NCBI RefSeq assembly: GCF_000428945.1
Contig: NZ_AUAX01000040.1
Location: 1 to 64,000, forward strand
Direction of reading: 5' to 3'
Length of the DNA stretch: 64,000 nucleotides
Source: Hamadaea tsunoensis DSM 44101
GTDB taxonomy: Bacteria > Actinomycetota > Actinomycetes > Mycobacteriales > Micromonosporaceae
Shown here: positions 54,886-64,000 of the stretch, in pieces
Layout: each line of letters begins with the position of its first letter
Position numbering within the stretch: position 1 is the first letter of the stretch
Notes under the pieces: generated by a model
Seen by the model: the letters and a program-made list of their open reading frames with translations, nothing else
Told to the model about the DNA's origin: nothing
Database searches by the model: none
Made by a program: the position numbers and the translations under genes

Positions 54886-55608
54886 CTAGCTGGCGTTGGC
54901 GTACGCCGTCGGATCCTTCCTCTTCAGGACTGCGACCCCGACGGCCGCCAGCCAGATCGCCGCGTACCCGTTGAACATCGCGACCGATCCCCATCCGTTG
55001 GCGGCGTAGAACTCCGACGAGTTGTAGCCGAAGTACATCGACGGGACCGCCGCCAGGTGGAGCGCCGCGACGGCGTACGACGTCCAGCCGACCCACCGGG
55101 GCAGGGCGCGGGTACGCAGGACCGCGTACCCGAAGGCGAGGCCGAAGACGAGCAGCATCAGGTGGCTGATGGAGCCGTAGAGCAGGTAGGTCGGGACGGT
55201 ACGCGTCGGGTCGATCCACTCGGGGGTCTTGATGGCGGTGCCGCCTTCGAGTCCCTTGGCCACCATGTCGATGATCGCCCAGGCGACGCCGGCGGTACCG
55301 GCCACGGTGCCGAACCATTCGTACCGGGCGTCGGCGCGCGCGATCAGGTACCGGACACCGGTCATGAAGACCAGGAACAGTGTGAGCGCGAGGAAGTTGA
55401 ACAGCGAGCGGGTCAGGACCAGCGAGTCCGGCATGGGGCTGCCGGTGTCGACCCCGCACTTCGCCGCGTCGCAGGCGCGTACCACGAAGTAGAGGGGGAG
55501 TTCGGCCATCGCGGCGACGGCGCCGAGGAGCGCGGCCCAGCCGATCCAGCGTCGGGCGGTGCCGGGGAGCTGAAACTGTGTAAGGGATGAAGTGTTCACG
55601 CCATGCAC
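54886..55608 (-). CDS. DUF4386-like integral membrane protein
   Basis: A 240-residue membrane protein with six hydrophobic helices (about 22-45, 65-85, 98-115, 140-165, 172-190 and 210-228). The order of polar residues resembles DUF4386 proteins of unknown function. It diverges from a TetR-family gene with a shared operator at 55606-55624, so it is probably the regulator's target. The start is GTG 55608 or GTG 55599; neither has a clear Shine-Dalgarno, so it may be leaderless. Confidence 0.65.
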   Translation of the reverse strand: MHGVNTSSLTQFQLPGTARRWIGWAALLGAVAAMAELPLYFVVRACDAAKCGVDTGSPMPDSLVLTRSLFNFLALTLFLVFMTGVRYLIARADARYEWFGTVAGTAGVAWAIIDMVAKGLEGGTAIKTPEWIDPTRTVPTYLLYGSISHLMLLVFGLAFGYAVLRTRALPRWVGWTSYAVAALHLAAVPSMYFGYNSSEFYAANGWGSVAMFNGYAAIWLAAVGVAVLKRKDPTAYANAS

Positions 55609-55624
55609 AGTAACAACAACTGTG
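55606..55624. promoter_or_regulatory. Operator of the divergent TetR pair
   Basis: CACAG (55606-55610) and CTGTG (55620-55624) form an inverted repeat with a 9-base centre. AACTGTGTAAGG occurs twice (55574-55585 and 55618-55629), so a second weaker site lies within the first codons of the membrane protein gene. Confidence 0.5.
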
Positions 55625-55668
55625 TAAGGCGTCTACAATTTTGCGGAGAACTCCGAAGGGAAGCCGGC

Positions 55669-56490
55669 ATGACCCCACGTAAGAGCCCTGGCCGCGACGG
55701 CGTACCGGATCACGCGCCTGCGCAGGACGTGAACCTCGACGCGCTGCCGCCCGGGCTGGCGGCGGCCTGGGGGGCCGTCGACGTCGAGGGGCGGCGCGGG
55801 CCGAAGCCGGCGCACAGCGTCGAGGAGATCATCGCGGTCGCGACGGAACTGGCCGACGAGGAGGGCATCGCGGCGGCTTCGCTGCCGAAGGTGGCCGGCC
55901 GGATCGGCGTGACAGCCAATGCGCTGTACCGGTATGTGGCGTCCAAAGAGGAGCTTCTCGTCCTGCTGGCTGATCGGGCCTGGGGCGAACCGCCCGCGCT
56001 GCCGGCCGGCGACTGGCGGGCGGCGGCGACGCTGTGGTCACACCAGCTGTTCGAACGGTTCCTCGCCCGCCCGTGGCTGCTGGACGTGCCGACGACCGTC
56101 CCGCTGACCCCGCACAACGCGGCGTGGCTGGATGCCCTGATCACCGCGCTCAAGCCGACCGGCATGGCGGCGCGGCAGATGCTGACGTGCGCGTACCTGC
56201 TGGACAGCCATGCCCGGTACGGGGCCAACCTGCGGCGCAACACGCCGACCCCGGCCGCCTTGCGGCGCGCGAATCCCGAACGGCAGCAGGCGATGCGGGC
56301 CGTACGCGTCTTCCTGGACGGCCGGCTGCGGTCGCGCAACCTGCTCGCCGTCGCGGAGGTGCTGGAGGATCCGGCCTTCCTCGCGGAGGAACCGGCGCAC
56401 GACGGCTTCGACTTCGGCCTCGCGCGCATCCTCGACGGCATCGAGGTGTACGTGTCGCGTGAGGAGGGTCTTGACACACCGCAGGCGTAG
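55669..56490 (+). CDS. TetR/AcrR family regulator
   Basis: A 273-residue regulator with an extended N-terminus of about 45 residues before the helix-turn-helix (VEEIIAVATELADEEGIAAAS, given by edges, then ANALYRYVASKEELL) and a long C-terminal ligand domain (TetR_C type with RPWLLDVP). The ATG at 55669 follows GAAGGGAAG. It should control the divergent membrane protein gene. Its stop lies 27 bases before the SARP start, so read-through into the SARP gene is possible. Confidence 0.85.
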   Translation: MTPRKSPGRDGVPDHAPAQDVNLDALPPGLAAAWGAVDVEGRRGPKPAHSVEEIIAVATELADEEGIAAASLPKVAGRIGVTANALYRYVASKEELLVLLADRAWGEPPALPAGDWRAAATLWSHQLFERFLARPWLLDVPTTVPLTPHNAAWLDALITALKPTGMAARQMLTCAYLLDSHARYGANLRRNTPTPAALRRANPERQQAMRAVRVFLDGRLRSRNLLAVAEVLEDPAFLAEEPAHDGFDFGLARILDGIEVYVSREEGLDTPQA

Positions 56491-56517
56491 GCTGCCCCCG
56501 TGCGCGGAAGATCATCG

Positions 56518-59475
56518 ATGATCTGTGTCCTCGGCCCCGTCGAGGTCGTCTGCGGTGGTGCCCCGGTGCACCTGCCTCCGCTGGAACGCCGCGTCCTCGC
56601 CGTCCTCGCGGCCCATGTCGGCAAGCTTGTGACGATCGACCGGCTGGTCGACATCCTGTGGCCGGATGATCCGCCGCGGTCGGCGCGTAATCGCGTCCAG
56701 GGGGTGATCTCGTCGTTGCGGCGGTCGGTGGGGCGCACCAGTACCCGCGAGGAGCTGATCGTCACCCGGCCGCCGGGGTACCTGCTGCGGGCCGGCTGCG
56801 AGGAGTACGACGCCGCGAAGTTCGTCGCCGCCATCGAGCAGGCCCGCGACCGGGCCGCCGCCGGGGACGCCGCGCAGGCCCGGGAGCTGCTGACCGAGGC
56901 GCTCGCGTGGTGGCGGGGGGACGCCTTCCAGGATGTCCCGCTGCCGCCGGTCGCGGCCGAGGCGCAGCGGCTGGAGGAGTTGCGCCGCAGTGCCGCCGAG
57001 GACCTCGTCGACGTGCGGCTCGATCAGGGGGAGCACACGGAACTGGTCGGCGAGCTGGCGCGGATGATCGCCGACCACCCGTTGCGGGAGCGGCTGCGCG
57101 GTCAGCTCATGGTCGCGCTGCACCGGTCCGGGCGGCAGGCGGAGGCGCTGGAGGCGTACCGGGCGGGGGCGGCGCTGCTGGCCGAGGAGCACGGCCTCGA
57201 TCCCGGCGAGGACCTGCAGCGCCTGCATCGCGAGATTCTCGCCCAGCCGGTCGCCCCGCACCCGCATCAGCTGCCCGCGGTCACCGCGGACTTCGTGGGC
57301 CGCCCGGCCGAGCTCGCCGCCGTCCTGTCCGCCCTGCGCGCGCCGGCGGCGCCGGGGGCCTGCCGCATCGTCGCGGTCACCGGGCCGTCGGGCATCGGCA
57401 AGACCACTCTGGCGGTACGCGCGGCGCACGAAGCGCAGTCGTCGTTCCCCGACGGCTGCCTCTATGCCGATCTGCGGGCCGGTTCGGGTGACCCGGTGGC
57501 GGCGCCGGCGGTGGCCGGGGCGTTCCTGCGGTCGCTGGGCGTGGCCGCGGCGACCGTCCCGGCCGAGCCCGCCGAGCGGATCGCGCTCTACCGGTCGGTG
57601 CTGGCCGGCCGCCGGGTCCTCGTGGTGCTCGACGACGCGGCCGGCGAGGCCCAGGTACGCCCGCTCATCCCGACCGGTGACAGTGGACTGATCGTGACGG
57701 CCCGGCCGGCGCTGGGTGGGCTGGCCGGGGCGGTCGGCGTACCGGTGGGGTCGTTCGGGGACGCCGAGGCGGTCGATCTGCTCGGGCGGGTCGGCGGCGC
57801 GGCGCGTACGGCGGCCGAACCCGAGGCGGCATTGGCGGTCGTCCGCCGCTGTGCCGGGTTGCCGCTGGCGATCCGGGTGGCCGGCGTACGCCTGGCGCAG
57901 CGGGGTGACCTGTCGCTGGCCCGGCTGGCGGGGCGGCTCGACGACGAGCACCGGCGGCTGGACGAGCTGCGGGCCGGCGATCTGGACGTGCGGGCCGCGT
58001 TCGACGTCGGCTACCGGGCGCTGGGCGAGCCGGCCCGGCGACTCGGCGCGCTCTGGAGCGGCCTCGGGCTGCCGGTCTGTACGCCGTGGCTGGCCGCGGT
58101 CCTGCTGGAGACGTCCGAAGTGGACGCCGAGCGGCACCTGGAGGAGCTCGCCGACGCGCATTTCGCCGCCCCGGCCGGCCCCGACCGGTACGCGATGCAC
58201 GACCTCGTCCGGGCCTACGCGCGGACGCGTACCGGTGGGGCGGAGCCTGATCCGGGCCGGCTGCACGCGGCGCTGATCGAGACGGCCCTGCTGGCCGCGA
58301 CGGCGTTGCCGTGCCGGGTGGTCCCGCTGCCCGAACCGGACGGCCCGCGCCCCAGCCGGGAGGCCGCGCTGGCCTGGTTCGCCGCCCACGCCGACGCCGT
58401 GCTGGCCGCCGTTCCGCAGGCCGTGCGGCTGGGCCGGCTGGAGACGGCCGCCCGGCTCGCGACCAGCCTCGCCAATTATCTCCAGCTGCACGGCCTGGTG
58501 GACGAGTGGGAGACCAGCCACCAGGCGGTGCTCTCGGCGTACCCGATGGAGGTGACGAGCGCGAGTCTCGCGCTGCTGCGGCTGTCCTACGGGACCATGC
58601 TGCGGTGGCAGTCGCGGCACGGCGACGCTCTGCCGTACCTGCGGGCGGCGCGGCGGGCCGCGCGGGGTGCCGCGGACCCGCAGCTGCGCCGCTACGCCGC
58701 CATGGCCGGGCTGTCGCTGGCGATCGGCCTGCGCCGCACCGGGAACCTGCGGGCGGCCGACGCGGCGCTGCGGTCGTCGTTCGCGGCGCTGGACTGGGGG
58801 CGGGTCGACCGGACCGATCACGGCTACGCCCTGTCGGTGCTCGGCATGCGGTACGCGGCCTACCAGCCGGCGTCGCCGTACGCGGCGGACCTGCTGGAAC
58901 GGGCGCTGGTGATCTTCGAAACGCTGGACGAGCCGTGGGGGGTGCTGACCGTCCACAGCGCGCTCGGCAACATCCGGTCGACCCTCGGCGACCTCGATCG
59001 GGCGCGGGCGCACCTCAGCCGGGCGATCGCGCTGTCGGAGCGGCTGGCCGACCCGCTCAGCGCCGCGGTGGCCCGGCAGGAGCTGGCGAACCTGCTGATC
59101 ACGGCGGGTGATCTGGCGGGCGCGGAGGGTCTGCTCGGCGCGACGCTGAGCGCCTTCCGCCGGATGCGGTACGCGTGGGGCGAGGCGACGTCGTTGCGGC
59201 TGACCGGCCGGCTGCTGCGGGAGCAGGGCCGCCCGGCCGAGGCGGTGGCGGTGCTGTCGGACGCGGTCGGCCTGCTGCGCGCGGGGGAGGAGCCGTTCGC
59301 GCTGGCCCGGGGCCTGTCGACGCTCGCGGCGACGAGCCTTGCGGCGGGCGACGAGCCGGGCGCGCGGGCGTCGGCGGCCGAGGCGCTGTCGGTCTACCGG
59401 TCGCTGGGCGCGGCGGACGCCGAGGAGCTGGCCGCCTGGATGATCCACAATGGATGGCAACCCGAGCAGGGATGA
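56518..59475 (+). CDS. SARP-type pathway activator (AfsR-like, with NB-ARC and TPR)
   Basis: A 985-residue SARP regulator. The OmpR-type DNA-binding domain (about 1-90) opens MICVLGPVEV and contains LPPLERRVLAVLAAHVG and PRSARNRVQGVISSLRR. A bacterial transcriptional activator domain follows (about 95-240). The NB-ARC ATPase has P-loop GPSGIGKTT near 287 and LVVLDDA. The C-terminal 400 residues are TPR repeats. AfsR-like SARPs activate secondary-metabolite genes. It directly precedes the Cys-rich peptide operon, and SARP-type heptamer repeats lie just after its stop codon. ATG 56518 matches the usual N-terminus better than GTG 56500. GGAAG is eight bases upstream. Confidence 0.92.
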   Translation: MICVLGPVEVVCGGAPVHLPPLERRVLAVLAAHVGKLVTIDRLVDILWPDDPPRSARNRVQGVISSLRRSVGRTSTREELIVTRPPGYLLRAGCEEYDAAKFVAAIEQARDRAAAGDAAQARELLTEALAWWRGDAFQDVPLPPVAAEAQRLEELRRSAAEDLVDVRLDQGEHTELVGELARMIADHPLRERLRGQLMVALHRSGRQAEALEAYRAGAALLAEEHGLDPGEDLQRLHREILAQPVAPHPHQLPAVTADFVGRPAELAAVLSALRAPAAPGACRIVAVTGPSGIGKTTLAVRAAHEAQSSFPDGCLYADLRAGSGDPVAAPAVAGAFLRSLGVAAATVPAEPAERIALYRSVLAGRRVLVVLDDAAGEAQVRPLIPTGDSGLIVTARPALGGLAGAVGVPVGSFGDAEAVDLLGRVGGAARTAAEPEAALAVVRRCAGLPLAIRVAGVRLAQRGDLSLARLAGRLDDEHRRLDELRAGDLDVRAAFDVGYRALGEPARRLGALWSGLGLPVCTPWLAAVLLETSEVDAERHLEELADAHFAAPAGPDRYAMHDLVRAYARTRTGGAEPDPGRLHAALIETALLAATALPCRVVPLPEPDGPRPSREAALAWFAAHADAVLAAVPQAVRLGRLETAARLATSLANYLQLHGLVDEWETSHQAVLSAYPMEVTSASLALLRLSYGTMLRWQSRHGDALPYLRAARRAARGAADPQLRRYAAMAGLSLAIGLRRTGNLRAADAALRSSFAALDWGRVDRTDHGYALSVLGMRYAAYQPASPYAADLLERALVIFETLDEPWGVLTVHSALGNIRSTLGDLDRARAHLSRAIALSERLADPLSAAVARQELANLLITAGDLAGAEGLLGATLSAFRRMRYAWGEATSLRLTGRLLREQGRPAEAVAVLSDAVGLLRAGEEPFALARGLSTLAATSLAAGDEPGARASAAEALSVYRSLGAADAEELAAWMIHNGWQPEQG

Positions 59476-59479
59476 TCGT

Positions 59480-59518
59480 CCGCAGCCGAAGCGCAGCGTC
59501 TCCGCAACGGGATACGAC
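59480..59518 (+). promoter_or_regulatory. SARP-type heptamer repeats and promoter
   Basis: CCGCAGC (59480-59486), GCGCAGC (59491-59497) and CCGCAAC (59502-59508) are direct repeats with starts exactly 11 bp apart and 4-bp spacers. TACGAC (59513-59518) is a possible -10 box. SARP activators are known to bind heptamer repeats at 11-bp spacing near the -10 box. The site lies between the SARP stop and the peptide gene. Confidence 0.7.
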
Positions 59519-59558
59519 AGGGTACGCGTCGAAGTCCCCACGAGACATGGGAGGTTCG

Positions 59559-59801
59559 ATGACGAAACTCGCCCACCTCGGCGACCGGATGCTCGGCCTG
59601 CTGCTCCGCGAAGAGCGGGCCGGCGCGTGCGTACCGGAGAACGGCCAGGCGTGCAGCGTCTGCGTCAAGGTCGACGGCTACTGCTCCGGCGGCTACTGGT
59701 ACTGGCGTTACCGCAAGGCGCACTACAACTGCAACGGCGTCTGCGTCAGCGACTCCAGCAAGGCGCTGTGCTACTCGCAGCGCAGCCAGAACATCTGCTA
59801 G
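59559..59801 (+). CDS. Cys-rich secreted peptide precursor
   Basis: An 80-residue peptide that I do not recognise. Residues 1-23 form a leader with a short hydrophobic stretch (HLGDRMLGLLLREERAGA) ending in Ala-Gly-Ala, a signal-peptidase-type cleavage site. The remaining 57 residues begin with Cys24 and hold eight cysteines (24, 32, 35, 42, 58, 62, 71, 80), an even number suiting four disulfides, plus an aromatic patch GGYWYWRYRK. GGGAGG four bases before ATG 59559 is a strong Shine-Dalgarno. The downstream thioredoxin-like protein, exporter and signal peptidase fit its maturation. The Cys/Trp pattern faintly recalls the small subunit of methylamine dehydrogenase, but there is no dehydrogenase gene. 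Confidence 0.8.
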   Translation: MTKLAHLGDRMLGLLLREERAGACVPENGQACSVCVKVDGYCSGGYWYWRYRKAHYNCNGVCVSDSSKALCYSQRSQNIC

Positions 59802-59815
59802 CACCGAGGCACGCC

Positions 59816-59849
59816 GGGCCCGCCGCCGTCCGCCATCGGCGCCGGGCCC
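59816..59849 (+). terminator. Intercistronic hairpin after the peptide gene
   Basis: GGGCCCG (59816-59822) pairs with CGGGCCC (59843-59849), with further partial pairing of GCCG and CGGC inside. It lies between the peptide gene and the maturation genes. A partial terminator here would give more peptide than enzyme message. Confidence 0.5.
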
Positions 59850-59880
59850 CCTCATCCTCTCCGGGACCGGAAGGACCGAC

Positions 59881-60402
59881 ATGATCGCCCTACTCACCGC
59901 CGGCCTGATCCTCGTCGCCGCGGTCACCGCGCTCAACCTGCTGCTCAGCCTGGCGATCATCCGCAAGCTGCGGGTGTCGCCGCCGGCCCCGGCCGCCGAC
60001 ACCGGCGAGGCGCTGCCCGACGTCGGCAGCCGCGTCGGCCGCTTCGAGGTCGTCACGACCGAGGGGCAGACCGTCACCGACGCCACCTTCGCCACCGGCC
60101 ACCACCAGATCATCATCCTGTCGCCGAGCTGCTCGCCGTGCCGCGAGCTCGCCGACCGGCTGGCCGAGGACCCGACCCTGGCCGAGGGGGACGCGTTCAT
60201 CCTCGTCTCCGGCGACGCCGAGGCCGCCGGTCCGATGCTGACCGAGCTGTCGGGGGTGCGGCGGACCGCGTACGACATGCTCGACTCGGCCACCAGCGCC
60301 CTGTCGGTGAGCGGCTTCCCCGCCGTCGTGTCCATTCAGGATGGTGTCGTGGTCGCGGCCGAGCACCGGCTCACCCGCCGCCGGCCCGCCGTCGCGGTCT
60401 GA
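59881..60402 (+). CDS. Membrane-tethered thioredoxin-like protein
   Basis: A 173-residue protein with one N-terminal membrane helix (about 3-28), a short linker and a thioredoxin-fold domain of TlpA/MauD type. The active site is Cys84-Ser-Pro-Cys87 in LSPSCSPC, and the cis-Pro is Pro147 in GFPAVV. The domain faces outside the membrane, where it can oxidise or shuffle the disulfides of the eight-Cys peptide. AAGGA five bases before ATG 59881. The stop overlaps the exporter start by one base (TGATG). Confidence 0.88.
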   Translation: MIALLTAGLILVAAVTALNLLLSLAIIRKLRVSPPAPAADTGEALPDVGSRVGRFEVVTTEGQTVTDATFATGHHQIIILSPSCSPCRELADRLAEDPTLAEGDAFILVSGDAEAAGPMLTELSGVRRTAYDMLDSATSALSVSGFPAVVSIQDGVVVAAEHRLTRRRPAVAV

Positions 60403-62201
60403 TGGCCGCCGGTCGAAGGACGGTGGGCCTGGCGCTGCGGCTGGGCTGGCGGGCGCATCCGGCCGCCGCCGTGACGCTGGCACTGCTCACCGTCCTCACC
60501 GGACTCCTGCCGATCGGCGCCGCCTGGTGCACCAAAGTCGTCTTCGACGGCCTCGCGACCGGCGCCCCGGCGCCGCGGGTGATCGGCTTCGCGGTCGCCG
60601 GGGCCGTCCTCGGCGGCCTGTCGGTCGTGCTCGGCTACCTCGCCGCGCAGGTCAACGCGGTCGCGCAGGCGGCCGTCGCGCTCGCGGCGGGGGAGGAGCT
60701 GTACCGCCGGGTGGCCGGGTTCGTCGGCATCGCGCCCTTCGAGGAGCCCGCCTTCCGTGACCGGCTCGCCCTCGCCGAACAGGCCGCGCAGCAGGCGCCG
60801 CAGGTGATCGTCTCCTTCGCCGTCACCGCCGGGCAGAGCGTCCTGCGGGTGGCCGGGTTCGCCGCCGTGCTCGTCACGCTCAACCCGTCCATCGCCGCCC
60901 TGCTGCTCGCCGCCGCGGTCCCCGAGCTGTTCATCCAGCTCGCCCTGGCCCGCCGCCGGGCCGCCGCGGCCGAGGCCGCCAACCCCTCCTTCCGCGCGCG
61001 CACCCTCTTCCAGAGCCTCCTGACGGATGTACGCGCCGCGCGGGAGAGCCGCATCTTCGGCCTGGGCGACCTGTTCCGGGACCGGATGCTGGGCGCGCTG
61101 CGCCAGGCGTACGCGGTGGAGCTGCGCGCGGGACGCCAGGCGGCGCTGGTGCAGTCGGGACTCGCGCTGGCCAGCGCGGCGGTCCTGGCGGCCGGAACGG
61201 TGGTGGCGTTGCGCGGAGTGCTGCGCGGCGAGCTCGGCATCGGCGACCTGACCCTGTTCCTCGGCGCGCTCGCGAGCCTGCAGGGCGGCCTGTCCGCGGT
61301 CCTCGCCCAGCTCGGCGAGGTCGGGGCGACCGTACGCCTCTTCGGCCACTACGCCCGCCTCGTCGGCACCGATGCGTCGCTTGTGGACGGTGGACGGCCG
61401 GCGCCGCCGCTGCGGCTCGGGCTGACCTTCGAGGACGTCTGGTTCCGCTACCGCCCCGACGGCCCGTGGGTGCTGCGCGGCGTCACCCTGACCATCCCGG
61501 CACGGTCGCTGGTGGGCCTGGTCGGCGTCAACGGCGCGGGCAAGAGCACCCTGGTGAAGCTGGCCTGCCGGTTCTACGACCCCGAACGCGGGCGGATCCT
61601 GTGGGACGGCGAGGACGTCCGCGACCTGTCCGCCGCGAGCCTCCGCCGCCGGATCGGCGCGGTGTTCCAGGACTTCATGGCGTACGACCTGACGGCGGCG
61701 GAGAACATCGGCGTCGGCGAGCCCACCCGGCTGCACGACACGGACGCCATCCGAGGCGCGGCGCGTACCGCCCGGATCGACGAGACCCTGGCCGCCCTCC
61801 CGCGCGGGTACGCGACCATGCTCAGCCGCATCTTCGCCGGCGAGGACGGGGAGGAGGGCGCGGCCCTGTCCGGCGGCCAGTGGCAACGGGTGGCGCTGGC
61901 CCGCTCGCTCCTGCGCGACGACGCCGACCTGCTCATCCTCGACGAGCCGACGGCGGCCCTCGACCCGCAGGCGGCGCACGAACTGACCCGGGCACTGCGG
62001 CAGGCGCGTACCGGCCGGGCGGGGCTGCTCATCTCGCACCGGCTCAGCGCGCTGCGCGACGCCGGCCTCATCGTGGTCCTCGACGGCGGCGTGGTCGCCG
62101 AGATCGGAGACCACGACACGCTCATGGCCGCCGGGGGAGCGTACGCGCGGCTGTTCTCGTTGCAGGCGGCCGACTACCAGGACGAGCGGGTACGGGCATG
62201 A
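60402..62201 (+). CDS. ABC exporter (fused permease-ATPase)
   Basis: A 599-residue half-transporter: six membrane helices in about 1-310, then the ATPase with Walker A GVNGAGKS (375-382), signature LSGGQ (489-493), Walker B LLILDEP (510-516) and H-loop His546. It lacks the N-terminal C39 peptidase domain found on many bacteriocin exporters; the separate S26 peptidase encoded next replaces it. It probably exports the Cys-rich peptide as a homodimer. The ATG overlaps the upstream stop by one base, and its stop overlaps the peptidase ATG by four. Confidence 0.9.
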   Translation: MAAGRRTVGLALRLGWRAHPAAAVTLALLTVLTGLLPIGAAWCTKVVFDGLATGAPAPRVIGFAVAGAVLGGLSVVLGYLAAQVNAVAQAAVALAAGEELYRRVAGFVGIAPFEEPAFRDRLALAEQAAQQAPQVIVSFAVTAGQSVLRVAGFAAVLVTLNPSIAALLLAAAVPELFIQLALARRRAAAAEAANPSFRARTLFQSLLTDVRAARESRIFGLGDLFRDRMLGALRQAYAVELRAGRQAALVQSGLALASAAVLAAGTVVALRGVLRGELGIGDLTLFLGALASLQGGLSAVLAQLGEVGATVRLFGHYARLVGTDASLVDGGRPAPPLRLGLTFEDVWFRYRPDGPWVLRGVTLTIPARSLVGLVGVNGAGKSTLVKLACRFYDPERGRILWDGEDVRDLSAASLRRRIGAVFQDFMAYDLTAAENIGVGEPTRLHDTDAIRGAARTARIDETLAALPRGYATMLSRIFAGEDGEEGAALSGGQWQRVALARSLLRDDADLLILDEPTAALDPQAAHELTRALRQARTGRAGLLISHRLSALRDAGLIVVLDGGVVAEIGDHDTLMAAGGAYARLFSLQAADYQDERVRA

Positions 62202-62602
62202 TCCTCGTGTTCCCGACGGTGATCGTGTTGCTGCTCGGGCTGGCCCGGTGGCGGCTGCGCCTGATCACCGTGACCGGCCGGAGCATGACCCCGACCCTCG
62301 CCGACGGCCGACGGCTGCTGGTCGTGCGCCGTCGACGCGTACGCGCCGGGGACGTGGTGGTGTTCCGGATGCCGCCCTCGACGGGGCCGACGGATCTCGC
62401 GTGGCTGGTGAAGCGGGCGGTCGCCGTGCCGGGCGATCCCGTGCCGCCGGACCTGTCCGCCTGGGTCCCCGGCCCGACCGTCCCCTCAGGACAGATGCTG
62501 GTACGCGGCGACAACCCGCACAGCGCGGACTCGCGTACCTTCGGCCTGGTCCCGCTCGCCACCATCCTCGGCACCCCGCTCCGGCCCCTTCCACCGCCCT
62601 GA
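62198..62602 (+). CDS. S26 family signal peptidase
   Basis: A 134-residue type I signal peptidase with one membrane helix (about 2-17). The nucleophile is Ser29 in TGRSMTPTL and the general base Lys72 in VKRAVAVPGD. RGDNPHSADSR at 103-113 is box E. It is short for the family (lacking the second domain) and lies in a biosynthetic operon, not a secretion one. It is the obvious candidate to cut the peptide leader after Ala-Gly-Ala outside the membrane. ATGA overlap with the exporter gene. Confidence 0.9.
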   Translation: MILVFPTVIVLLLGLARWRLRLITVTGRSMTPTLADGRRLLVVRRRRVRAGDVVVFRMPPSTGPTDLAWLVKRAVAVPGDPVPPDLSAWVPGPTVPSGQMLVRGDNPHSADSRTFGLVPLATILGTPLRPLPPP

Positions 62603-62656
62603 CTCCCGGCGATCTTGCGCGAATGTGCGGCCCTCCGGTGGCTTGGGCGGGTCGCT

Positions 62657-62760
62657 TGATCATGTCGCGTGCATATGTCGGAGTGGATCGCCCGGCCGTG
62701 ATCATGTAACGCGTATATGTTGCGGCGGCCGGATTTCGACATATATCGGTGACATGATCA
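62657..62760. repeat. Inverted and direct TGATCATGT repeats in a gene-free stretch
   Basis: The segment 62657-62680 is an inverted partner of 62737-62760 (TGATCATGTC and ATATGTCG conserved, centre variable). A third direct copy lies at 62699-62724. CCGTAAACGATCA occurs at 63018-63030 and 63060-63072. The whole stretch 62603-63162 holds repeats of this kind and no supportable gene. Confidence 0.7.
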
Positions 62761-63162
62761 AGGCTGTCGAACGCCTCGCACAGGTGCTTCGGCGATTCGT
62801 CCGCGGTGCGGAGCGGCGACCCGTTGGGGAGCTGAGGATGGGATCATGTCTACGCCGCCGCGCCATGCATCGTGCTCGTGATGTGGAAACGATCTTCCGC
62901 CATGCGGACGCCGGGTTCAGGTTTCTTGATCGATTACGGCTGAGGTGTAATTCCGGCCCGATCTGCATGATCAATGACGCTTCAGGTGCAGCGAAAGCCG
63001 GTCAGTGCGCTCCAGAACCGTAAACGATCATGTATCGGGTGACCCTTTCCGCGCCTCAGCCGTAAACGATCACCCTGCTGGATGGGGCGTACGGGTCGGA
63101 GCGGTCTCCCGCGGGAGGAGCGGAGGTGAGGTCGGCGAGCCCGGGACAAGAAGATCTTGACC

Positions 63163-64000
63163 TTAATGATCTTTGTCCTGCCGGGGACTCAGTCGGTCGA
63201 CTACTTCCGTCGAGCGGCGCCACCAGTAGTCGTAGCGGCCCGAGAACTCCTCCTTCAGCGCCGTGAACCGTGCCAGCGCCTCCCGCGCGTACGCCAGGTC
63301 GTCCTCGGCGTCCCCGATGAGCAGGAAGACGTTCGCCAGTGAGCTCGCGACGAGCAGCGGGACTTCCTGCGCGTACTCCCGCATGATCGGTTCGGCGAGG
63401 CGCGCGGACCCGGCGGCCTCCGCGCGGCGGCCCTGGGCGAGCAGGATCTCGGCGCGGGTGGTGAGCGGGATGCCCCAGCGCCGCCGGTCGTTCTCGCCGG
63501 CCTCCTCCAGTACGCGCAGCGCCTCGTCCACAGCGGACAGTGCCTCGTCGAGCCGGCGTTGCCGGGTGAGGGTGGTGGCGTGGTTGCTGAGCGCCGCCAC
63601 GAGGAGGTTGCGGGTGGCGCGGCCGGAGCCGGTGCGGGCGATGGCGATCGCCTGGGCGTCGTCGTCGGCGGCTTCGTCGAACCGGCCGAGCAGGGTGAGC
63701 GAGGTGCTGCGCAGCACGAGCAGTTCAGTCTCGACGTCGCGCGGCCCGCCGCCGGCCCGGACGAGGTCGAGGGCGTCGGTGAGCGGGACGAGCGATTCGG
63801 CGGTCCGGCCGAGGTCGGCGAGCGCCGCGCCCTCGTTCAGCAGGATCGGTACGCGCCCCGCCTTCGACAGCATGCCGGGCGCGACCTGGTCGAGTTCGCC
63901 GAAGTAGGTCAGGGCGGCGCTGCTGGCGGCCAGGCTGTCGGCGGCCCGGCCGAGCTGGCGGAGCACGAAACTGCGCAGGGACATGAGCTCGGCGCCGAGC
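63163..64000 (-). CDS. TPR-repeat protein, C-terminal part
   Basis: The frame runs off the window edge, so the start is missing; an internal ATG at 63984 is not convincing as a start because the frame stays open beyond it. The visible 278 residues are nearly all helical hairpins of TPR type (ALADLGRTAESLVPLTDALD, LLGRFDEAADDDAQAIAIA, TRQRRLDEALSAVDEALRVL, LLAQGRRAEAAGSARLAEPI). It may be the C-terminal part of a large regulator or an ATPase-TPR protein. The end reads VVDRLSPRQDKDH. Confidence 0.75.
   Translation of the reverse strand, partial: LGAELMSLRSFVLRQLGRAADSLAASSAALTYFGELDQVAPGMLSKAGRVPILLNEGAALADLGRTAESLVPLTDALDLVRAGGGPRDVETELLVLRSTSLTLLGRFDEAADDDAQAIAIARTGSGRATRNLLVAALSNHATTLTRQRRLDEALSAVDEALRVLEEAGENDRRRWGIPLTTRAEILLAQGRRAEAAGSARLAEPIMREYAQEVPLLVASSLANVFLLIGDAEDDLAYAREALARFTALKEEFSGRYDYWWRRSTEVVDRLSPRQDKDH

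Follow-up and report, generated by a model that had tools for sequence, protein, structure and literature searches.

A candidate biosynthesis and export cluster for leader-bearing, disulfide-rich peptides in Hamadaea tsunoensis and other actinomycetes

A row of four genes at positions 59559-62602 of a 64,000-nucleotide stretch of the Hamadaea tsunoensis DSM 44101 genome (contig NZ_AUAX01000040.1, positions 1-64,000 of the forward strand; hereafter 'the window') probably serves specifically to make and export a ribosomal, disulfide-rich peptide that is synthesised with a leader. The genes code for a small precursor peptide, a membrane-anchored thioredoxin-fold protein (TLP), an ATP-binding cassette (ABC) exporter and a small serine protease of family S26. 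Evident in the sequences themselves are the four genes and their conservation as a set, the catalytic residues, the parity of the Cys residues in the precursors and an A-x-A pattern at the end of the leader. A preliminary description of the window had already proposed a self-contained system for making, oxidising, exporting and trimming a peptide with eight Cys residues, and this scheme serves as the starting point for the analysis presented herein.

The precursor gene (59559-59801, on the forward strand like every feature of the row) encodes 80 residues, of which the first 23 form a Cys-free leader (MTK...ERAGA, 59559-59627) and the following 57 a predicted core (59628-59798) that contains all eight Cys residues. 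It is followed by the genes for the 173-residue TLP (59881-60402), which carries a CSPC motif at residues 84-87 (codons at 60130-60141), for the 599-residue exporter (60402-62201), whose transmembrane region and ATPase match the Pfam families ABC_membrane and ABC_tran and in which Pfam reveals no C39 peptidase family, and for the 134-residue S26 protease (62198-62602), with Ser29 (codon 62282-62284) and Lys72 (codon 62411-62413) as its catalytic residues. All four genes and both residues had been correctly recognised in the preliminary description. Its depiction of a tightly overlapped row is accurate for the TLP, ABC and S26 genes, which overlap by 1 and 4 nucleotides (nt), respectively, and does not extend to the precursor gene, which lies 79 nt ahead of the TLP gene.

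Homologues of the precursor, and with them the same gene set, are widespread among actinomycetes. A tblastn search with the window precursor yielded matches in 17 of 200 genomes of the window's family, including its own genome, in which a second copy was also detected; one of the 17 (G170, locus L037) is a false match of 26 amino acids with no cluster and was left out of the Cys and gene-set counts. Matching the pattern AGACVPE[HNQ]G against named genomes produced 39 loci, among them representatives from Micromonospora, Catellatospora, Paractinoplanes, Lentzea, Nonomuraea, Streptomyces, Embleya, Actinomadura, Kibdelosporangium and Amycolatopsis. With L037 and the duplicates L046, L048, L051, L053 and L057 excluded, there are 55 non-redundant loci found through the peptide, window included, and 50 of these combine a precursor, a TLP, an ABC exporter and an S26 protease. 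The order precursor-TLP-ABC-S26 is seen in 42 of the 50 complete loci, whereas the TLP gene is divergent in the other eight, five of which carry two tandem precursor genes. The remaining five loci are incomplete: L004 and L082 have only the peptide gene, L036 is without a TLP gene, no ABC or S26 gene was found in L080, and L044 sits at a contig end. An S26 gene is thus linked in 51 of the 55 loci (the 50 complete ones and L036). The four-gene order, a search for which was suggested in the preliminary description, thus recurs in other actinomycetes, and the notion of a self-contained peptide system is supported. No modifying enzyme was seen to recur beside the gene row, and the neighbours that recur across lineages are SARP-type regulators and MauE; the other listed neighbour groups, which were not annotated one by one, are restricted to close relatives, or are antisense frames or general proteins. 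The genome of H. tsunoensis itself holds four such clusters, namely the window and those on contigs C16, C18 and C7. The leaders encoded at C18:17229-20340 (L115) and C7:286860-289890 (L116) end in ASA-C and AAA-SC, and in the C7 cluster the precursor gene occupies the 3' end of the row.

Searches with the peptide reached only the genome of H. tsunoensis in larger collections, both when a precursor alignment was used against 396 genomes of the phylum (with at most 14 candidates scored per listed genome) and when a single precursor was used against 394 genomes of the class, and therefore we turned to a TLP profile. The window TLP alone, used as a query against genome contigs, recovered no relative. 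This profile, which also avoids the AGAC criterion of the pattern scan, found matches in 88 of 200 family genomes (E <= 1e-10) and in 17 of 296 genomes of the window's class (E <= 1e-15), the genome of H. tsunoensis included in each case. Assembly G075 (14.1 Mb, 10% contamination) gave 17 TLP matches, which reflects either an extreme expansion or a mixed assembly. Seventy-five TLP-anchored loci outside the H. tsunoensis genome were read for neighbours; among the 59 from the window's family, 47 have TLP, ABC and S26 genes and 43 have a MauE gene. A Cys-free profile built only from leaders detected 67 precursors, which are spread over 60 of these loci, and a looser search of the 15 loci lacking a match uncovered precursors in four more (L164 with 8 Cys, L185 with 6, L198 with 9 and 7, and L223 with 8). 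Thus, a precursor gene was found in 64 of the 75 loci.

Even numbers of Cys residues are found in 60 of 60 distinct precursors of the AGAC type (4 in 1 precursor, 6 in 32, 8 in 23 and 10 in 4), and none has a Cys in its leader. In an alignment of 22 precursors found by similarity (A1), the first Cys and three others are invariant. Conservation of the Cys positions, the lack of which would count against the scheme of the preliminary description, is thus only partial: it holds for these four positions in A1, and relatives beyond this group differ in how many Cys residues they have and in how these are spaced. Among the 67 precursors detected by the leader-only profile, 61 have an even number. 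Eleven of the 67 leaders were part of the profile's training set, nine having been typed in and two (L153 and L226) being repeats of precursors in the first set; once these two repeats are removed, the count becomes 59 of 65. With the looser search included, even numbers are found in 64 of 72 precursors overall. For even counts in 44 of 50, the binomial probability is 3e-8, which is merely a rough guide because the loci are related. Precursor genes with odd Cys counts are neighbours in two loci, L169:1592-2057 (11 and 9, on opposite strands) and L198:2842-3364 (9 and 7), an arrangement that would fit a covalent product made of two peptides.

An AlphaFold2 model of the window precursor has a beta-rich core with block-mean pLDDT (predicted local distance difference test) values of 85-93 over residues 31-80. 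A search of PDB sequences with the precursor gave a single weak match, to a ripening-related protein (E 0.078). When the full precursor model was submitted to Foldseek, laterosporulin (PDB 4ozk, 6lwy and 6lwz), a small bacterial disulfide-rich beta peptide, took ranks 1, 2 and 5, and this likeness was no stronger with a model of the core alone.

The leader is amphipathic and of a non-Sec type, with the motif ..GDRxLxxxL..AxA. The residues A-G-A-C at its junction with the core are invariant in 22 of 22 sequences of A1, and are present by selection in the 39 loci from the pattern scan. In two other clusters of the H. tsunoensis genome, AGAC is replaced by TASAC and TAAASC. In the TLP-anchored set, A-x-A or V-x-A occurs within 12 residues ahead of the first Cys in 67 of 67 precursors, where x in the first A-x-A found is S, T, R, Q, A, E, D, K, V, N or G, a count that is weakened by being partly circular, in that the leader profile contains those columns and x was scored at the first A-x-A only. 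The conserved Ala-Gly-Ala of the preliminary description is thus a property of the window's subfamily, whose leaders end in GA, and is relaxed in the wider family to A-x-A or V-x-A with a varying middle residue. It is the free x combined with the retained Ala residues that is the informative part of the cut-site pattern, and the exact scissile bond is ambiguous where several A-x-A motifs run in succession. Small residues at positions -3 and -1 constitute the signal peptidase rule, and it is this match that ties the S26 protease to the leader. Secretion of the precursor by a Sec-type route was considered and rejected, given that the longest leader stretch without charged residues, N, Q or H has a median length of 6 and never exceeds 13; interpretation of AGAC as a lipoprotein motif was dismissed on the same grounds.

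The S26 protease of the window passes the cut-offs of PF10502 (78.0 bits versus 22.9) and TIGR02227 (69.7 bits versus 47), and falls under that of the nickel superoxide dismutase (SOD) maturation protease family TIGR02754 (42.1 bits versus 63.25). All 29 aligned S26 proteins retain both Ser29 and Lys72; each of them matches signal peptidase I, and 28 match TIGR02754 (E <= 0.001, with the cut-off of the latter unapplied). The retention of A-x-A and of the Ser/Lys dyad supports the earlier suggestion that the S26 enzyme is the likely leader peptidase. At L058:10053-10451, the S26 match is in two pieces, reflecting a broken gene or a sequencing error; the adjacent precursor, with four Cys residues, is the smallest of the set.

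The earlier assignment of the TLP as a dedicated thiol-redox protein is likewise supported. The CxxC motif and the Pro of FP are invariant in 25 of 25 aligned TLPs. Four of these 25 match MauD at E <= 0.001. The window TLP has a single N-terminal hydrophobic segment, and such a segment precedes CxxC in 51 of 51 TLPs. A gene for MauE (PF07291, 74.8 bits versus a cut-off of 27) is present in 35 of the 55 non-redundant loci (38 of 60 with duplicates). In 11 Lentzea loci (e.g. L071:7224-8159) and one Actinosynnema locus (L076), MauE and the TLP share one stop-free reading frame, and therefore we argue that the two act together.

From these components a pathway can be proposed, although each of its chemical steps, including disulfide formation, cleavage, the location of both and the activity of the product, is something that we infer. 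The amphipathic leader would presumably mark the precursor for the machinery. The TLP would form the disulfides, with MauE as a likely electron partner in many loci. The S26 protease would remove the leader after A-x-A, such that the mature peptide of the window would begin at its first Cys, and the ABC protein would export the peptide. SARP-type genes are present in 23 of the 55 loci, and presumed control by such a regulator, together with a variable core, suggests antagonism or signalling as the most likely role of the product. The preliminary description did not note that relatives encode a MauE partner, nor did it mention the role of SARP regulators, the hairpin that follows the precursor gene or how large the family is.

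Several observations weigh against the proposed pathway. No precursor was found in the stretch read for 11 of the 75 TLP-anchored loci, such that the link between peptide gene and machinery assumed in the preliminary description is seen in most of these loci rather than in all. Six of the 67 precursors from the leader-only profile have odd Cys counts (the L169 pair with 11 and 9, three others with 7, 7 and 7, and one with 5), as do two of the five found by the looser search. The window TLP scores only 18.8 bits against MauD (TIGR02661, cut-off 188.6) and has no Pfam match, no MauE gene was found in the 16 kb read at the window locus, and no immunity gene was recognised.

The side of the membrane on which the proposed reactions would occur was judged by the positive-inside rule and simple scripts. 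Fifty S26 proteins from peptide-found loci have a readable Ser motif (L058 has none in frame), and in 26 of them the 45 in-frame residues that lead up to the Ser contain no hydrophobic stretch. In 12 of these 26, an in-frame stop occurs within 45 codons upstream of the Ser, and therefore no anchor has been overlooked in them. These proteins come from Micromonospora, Paractinoplanes, Lentzea and relatives, and Nonomuraea, and given that a segment is the rule in a broader set, the soluble form appears to be a lineage feature. Where a segment is present, K/R residues are more numerous after it than before it in 15 of 16 S26 proteins and in 40 of 44 of the broad set, whereas three other S26-family proteins of the H. 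tsunoensis genome are K/R-rich before the segment. All TLPs in two sets of 51 and 58 (one shared; 108 of 108 distinct) carry K/R after their segment and never before it. In the eight MauE proteins inspected, for two of which (L047 and L076) segment detection partly failed, the loop with the CxC motif is net positive, like the first loop, and in the fusions the TLP continues on that side. When plasmids were searched for MauD and MauE of methylotrophs as a topology control, only Streptomyces matches were returned. On the basis of this charge bias, the positive-inside rule points to active sites of the TLP, the S26 protease and MauE that face the cytoplasm. If the overall scheme holds, we lean towards placing both oxidation and cleavage at the cytoplasmic side of the membrane, either ahead of the exporter or at it.

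The arrangement envisaged in the preliminary description is the reverse, in that a leader-bearing precursor would first be exported and then be oxidised by a MauD-like oxidase and cut by the S26 enzyme outside the cell. In its favour, the S26 protein is above the signal peptidase I cut-off, an N-terminal hydrophobic segment is present in the window S26 and in 44 of 46 S26 proteins of the broad set, and three of the 44 with a segment have more K/R before it than after. Moreover, A-x-A follows the signal peptidase rule, and MauD is usually placed outside the cytoplasm. The missing segment in 26 of 50 S26 proteins of the closest loci, the inward-pointing charge bias of the TLPs and of most segment-bearing S26 proteins, and the positive CxC loop of MauE all argue against this order of events, and we consider it unlikely. 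Thus, the make-oxidise-export-trim scheme appears to be right in outline, and probably wrong in where it places oxidation and cleavage. A fuller version of the inward-facing pathway is offered only tentatively. In it, a widespread class of actinomycete peptides would be oxidised by inward-facing MauE and TLP, cleaved at A-x-A by an S26 protease that is either soluble or faces inward, and exported already folded and locked by disulfides, such that oxidative folding would take place on the cytoplasmic side although the cell interior is reducing; the odd-Cys pairs of L169 and L198 would form covalent heterodimers.

Two further explanations call for a different role of the core or of the protease. 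The core might be a metal-binding peptide, or a cellular redox or structural peptide that is kept reduced by the TLP, with a different substrate for the ABC exporter. CxC and CC pairs occur often, and thioredoxin folds are able to reduce as well as to oxidise; however, Cys numbers that are mostly even, with variable spacing, suit pairing better than a fixed metal site, and a dedicated exporter co-occurs, all of which makes this idea very improbable. We give still less credence to a double-glycine-type leader cut by a C39 peptidase encoded elsewhere, with another role for the S26 enzyme: AGAC-subfamily leaders do end in G-A at -2/-1, a known double-glycine variant according to the portion of a 2023 review of leader proteases consulted (PMC10885120), but different family members have different residues between the two Ala, an S26 gene is linked in nearly every locus, and the window exporter contains no C39 family (the genome was not searched for C39).

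The 79-nt gap between the precursor and TLP genes of the window contains a G+C-rich hairpin (59816-59849) that is a possible attenuator. The gap folds at -40 kcal/mol with a z-score of -1.82, and 10 of 200 shuffles fold as well, so that the hairpin is only modestly stable relative to shuffled sequences, a point against the proposed scheme. Across the family, 52 of 59 precursor genes are followed by a 75-nt stretch with a fold of -30 kcal/mol or lower, with z-scores, from up to 60 simple shuffles each, that are variable and in some cases weak. Five of the seven weaker folds lie behind the first of two tandem precursor genes (L003, L054, L056, L059 and L067), and in these a stable fold follows the second gene; a sixth tandem pair, at L082, has a stable fold after both. 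A hairpin at this position would suit a high output of precursor and a low output of enzymes. No pattern resembling a sigma-70 promoter or a T-tailed terminator was found in 59400-62800. Upstream of the precursor gene by 83 nt is a gene for a SARP-family regulator (56500-59475, forward strand), with Trans_reg_C, BTAD, NB-ARC and TPR domains according to Pfam and NCBIfam, and directly upstream of this lies a gene for a TetR-family regulator (55603-56490, Pfam). Beyond the row, a minus-strand open frame at 63163-63999, TPR-like by eye, exits the end of the window.

We recognised no characterised system of the same make-up in the open literature searched, which agrees with the statement in the preliminary description that no named system has this set. 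Pediocin-like bacteriocins have a leader, ABC export and a thioredoxin-like disulfide helper, and their leaders are cut at a double-glycine site by a C39 peptidase. The system described here shares the first three attributes and differs in having no C39 domain, and instead an S26 protease paired with A-x-A. Predicted relatives may already have been flagged. In the main text of the decRiPPter study (PMC7794033), three candidate families from Streptomyces are described that have mauE, one of them also mauD, with precursors of at least eight Cys residues, and a role in precursor modification is suggested for these genes. This is the only paper in the open literature searched that mentions both MauE and ribosomally synthesised and post-translationally modified peptides (RiPPs). 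Three loci of the window's class (L223, L224 and L225) carry MauE, TLP, ABC and S26 genes and a precursor, that of L223 having eight Cys residues, and because of these sets the decRiPPter families may be the family described here. Those families are predictions only, and neither S26 nor signal peptidase appears in the main text of that paper.

Other comparisons concern single attributes. SodX, which removes the N terminus of SodN (TIGR02754; PMC3919588, in the portion consulted), is likewise a dedicated peptidase beside its one substrate, although that substrate is an enzyme and not a Cys-rich peptide. Actifensin and actinomycesin of Actinomyces (portions of PMC6989792 and PMC8819291) are leader-bearing peptides with three disulfides and adjoining ABC genes; unlike in the window system, the actifensin leader ends in G-x-E and its cluster has a subtilisin-like protease, and the words thioredoxin and peptidase are absent from the PMC6989792 text consulted. 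Neither S26 nor signal peptidase is found in the main text of the leader-protease review mentioned above (PMC10885120).

If the proposed pathway is correct, a single module would account for an extensive actinomycete pool of small peptides rich in disulfides, for which the combination of leader, A-x-A, an even number of Cys residues and a TLP-ABC-S26 gene set is offered as a search rule. S26 enzymes would join the proteases known to remove leaders, and proteins of the MauE and MauD type would gain a substrate outside methylamine metabolism. The family would also make the oxidation of bacterial peptides at the inner side of the membrane a testable proposition.

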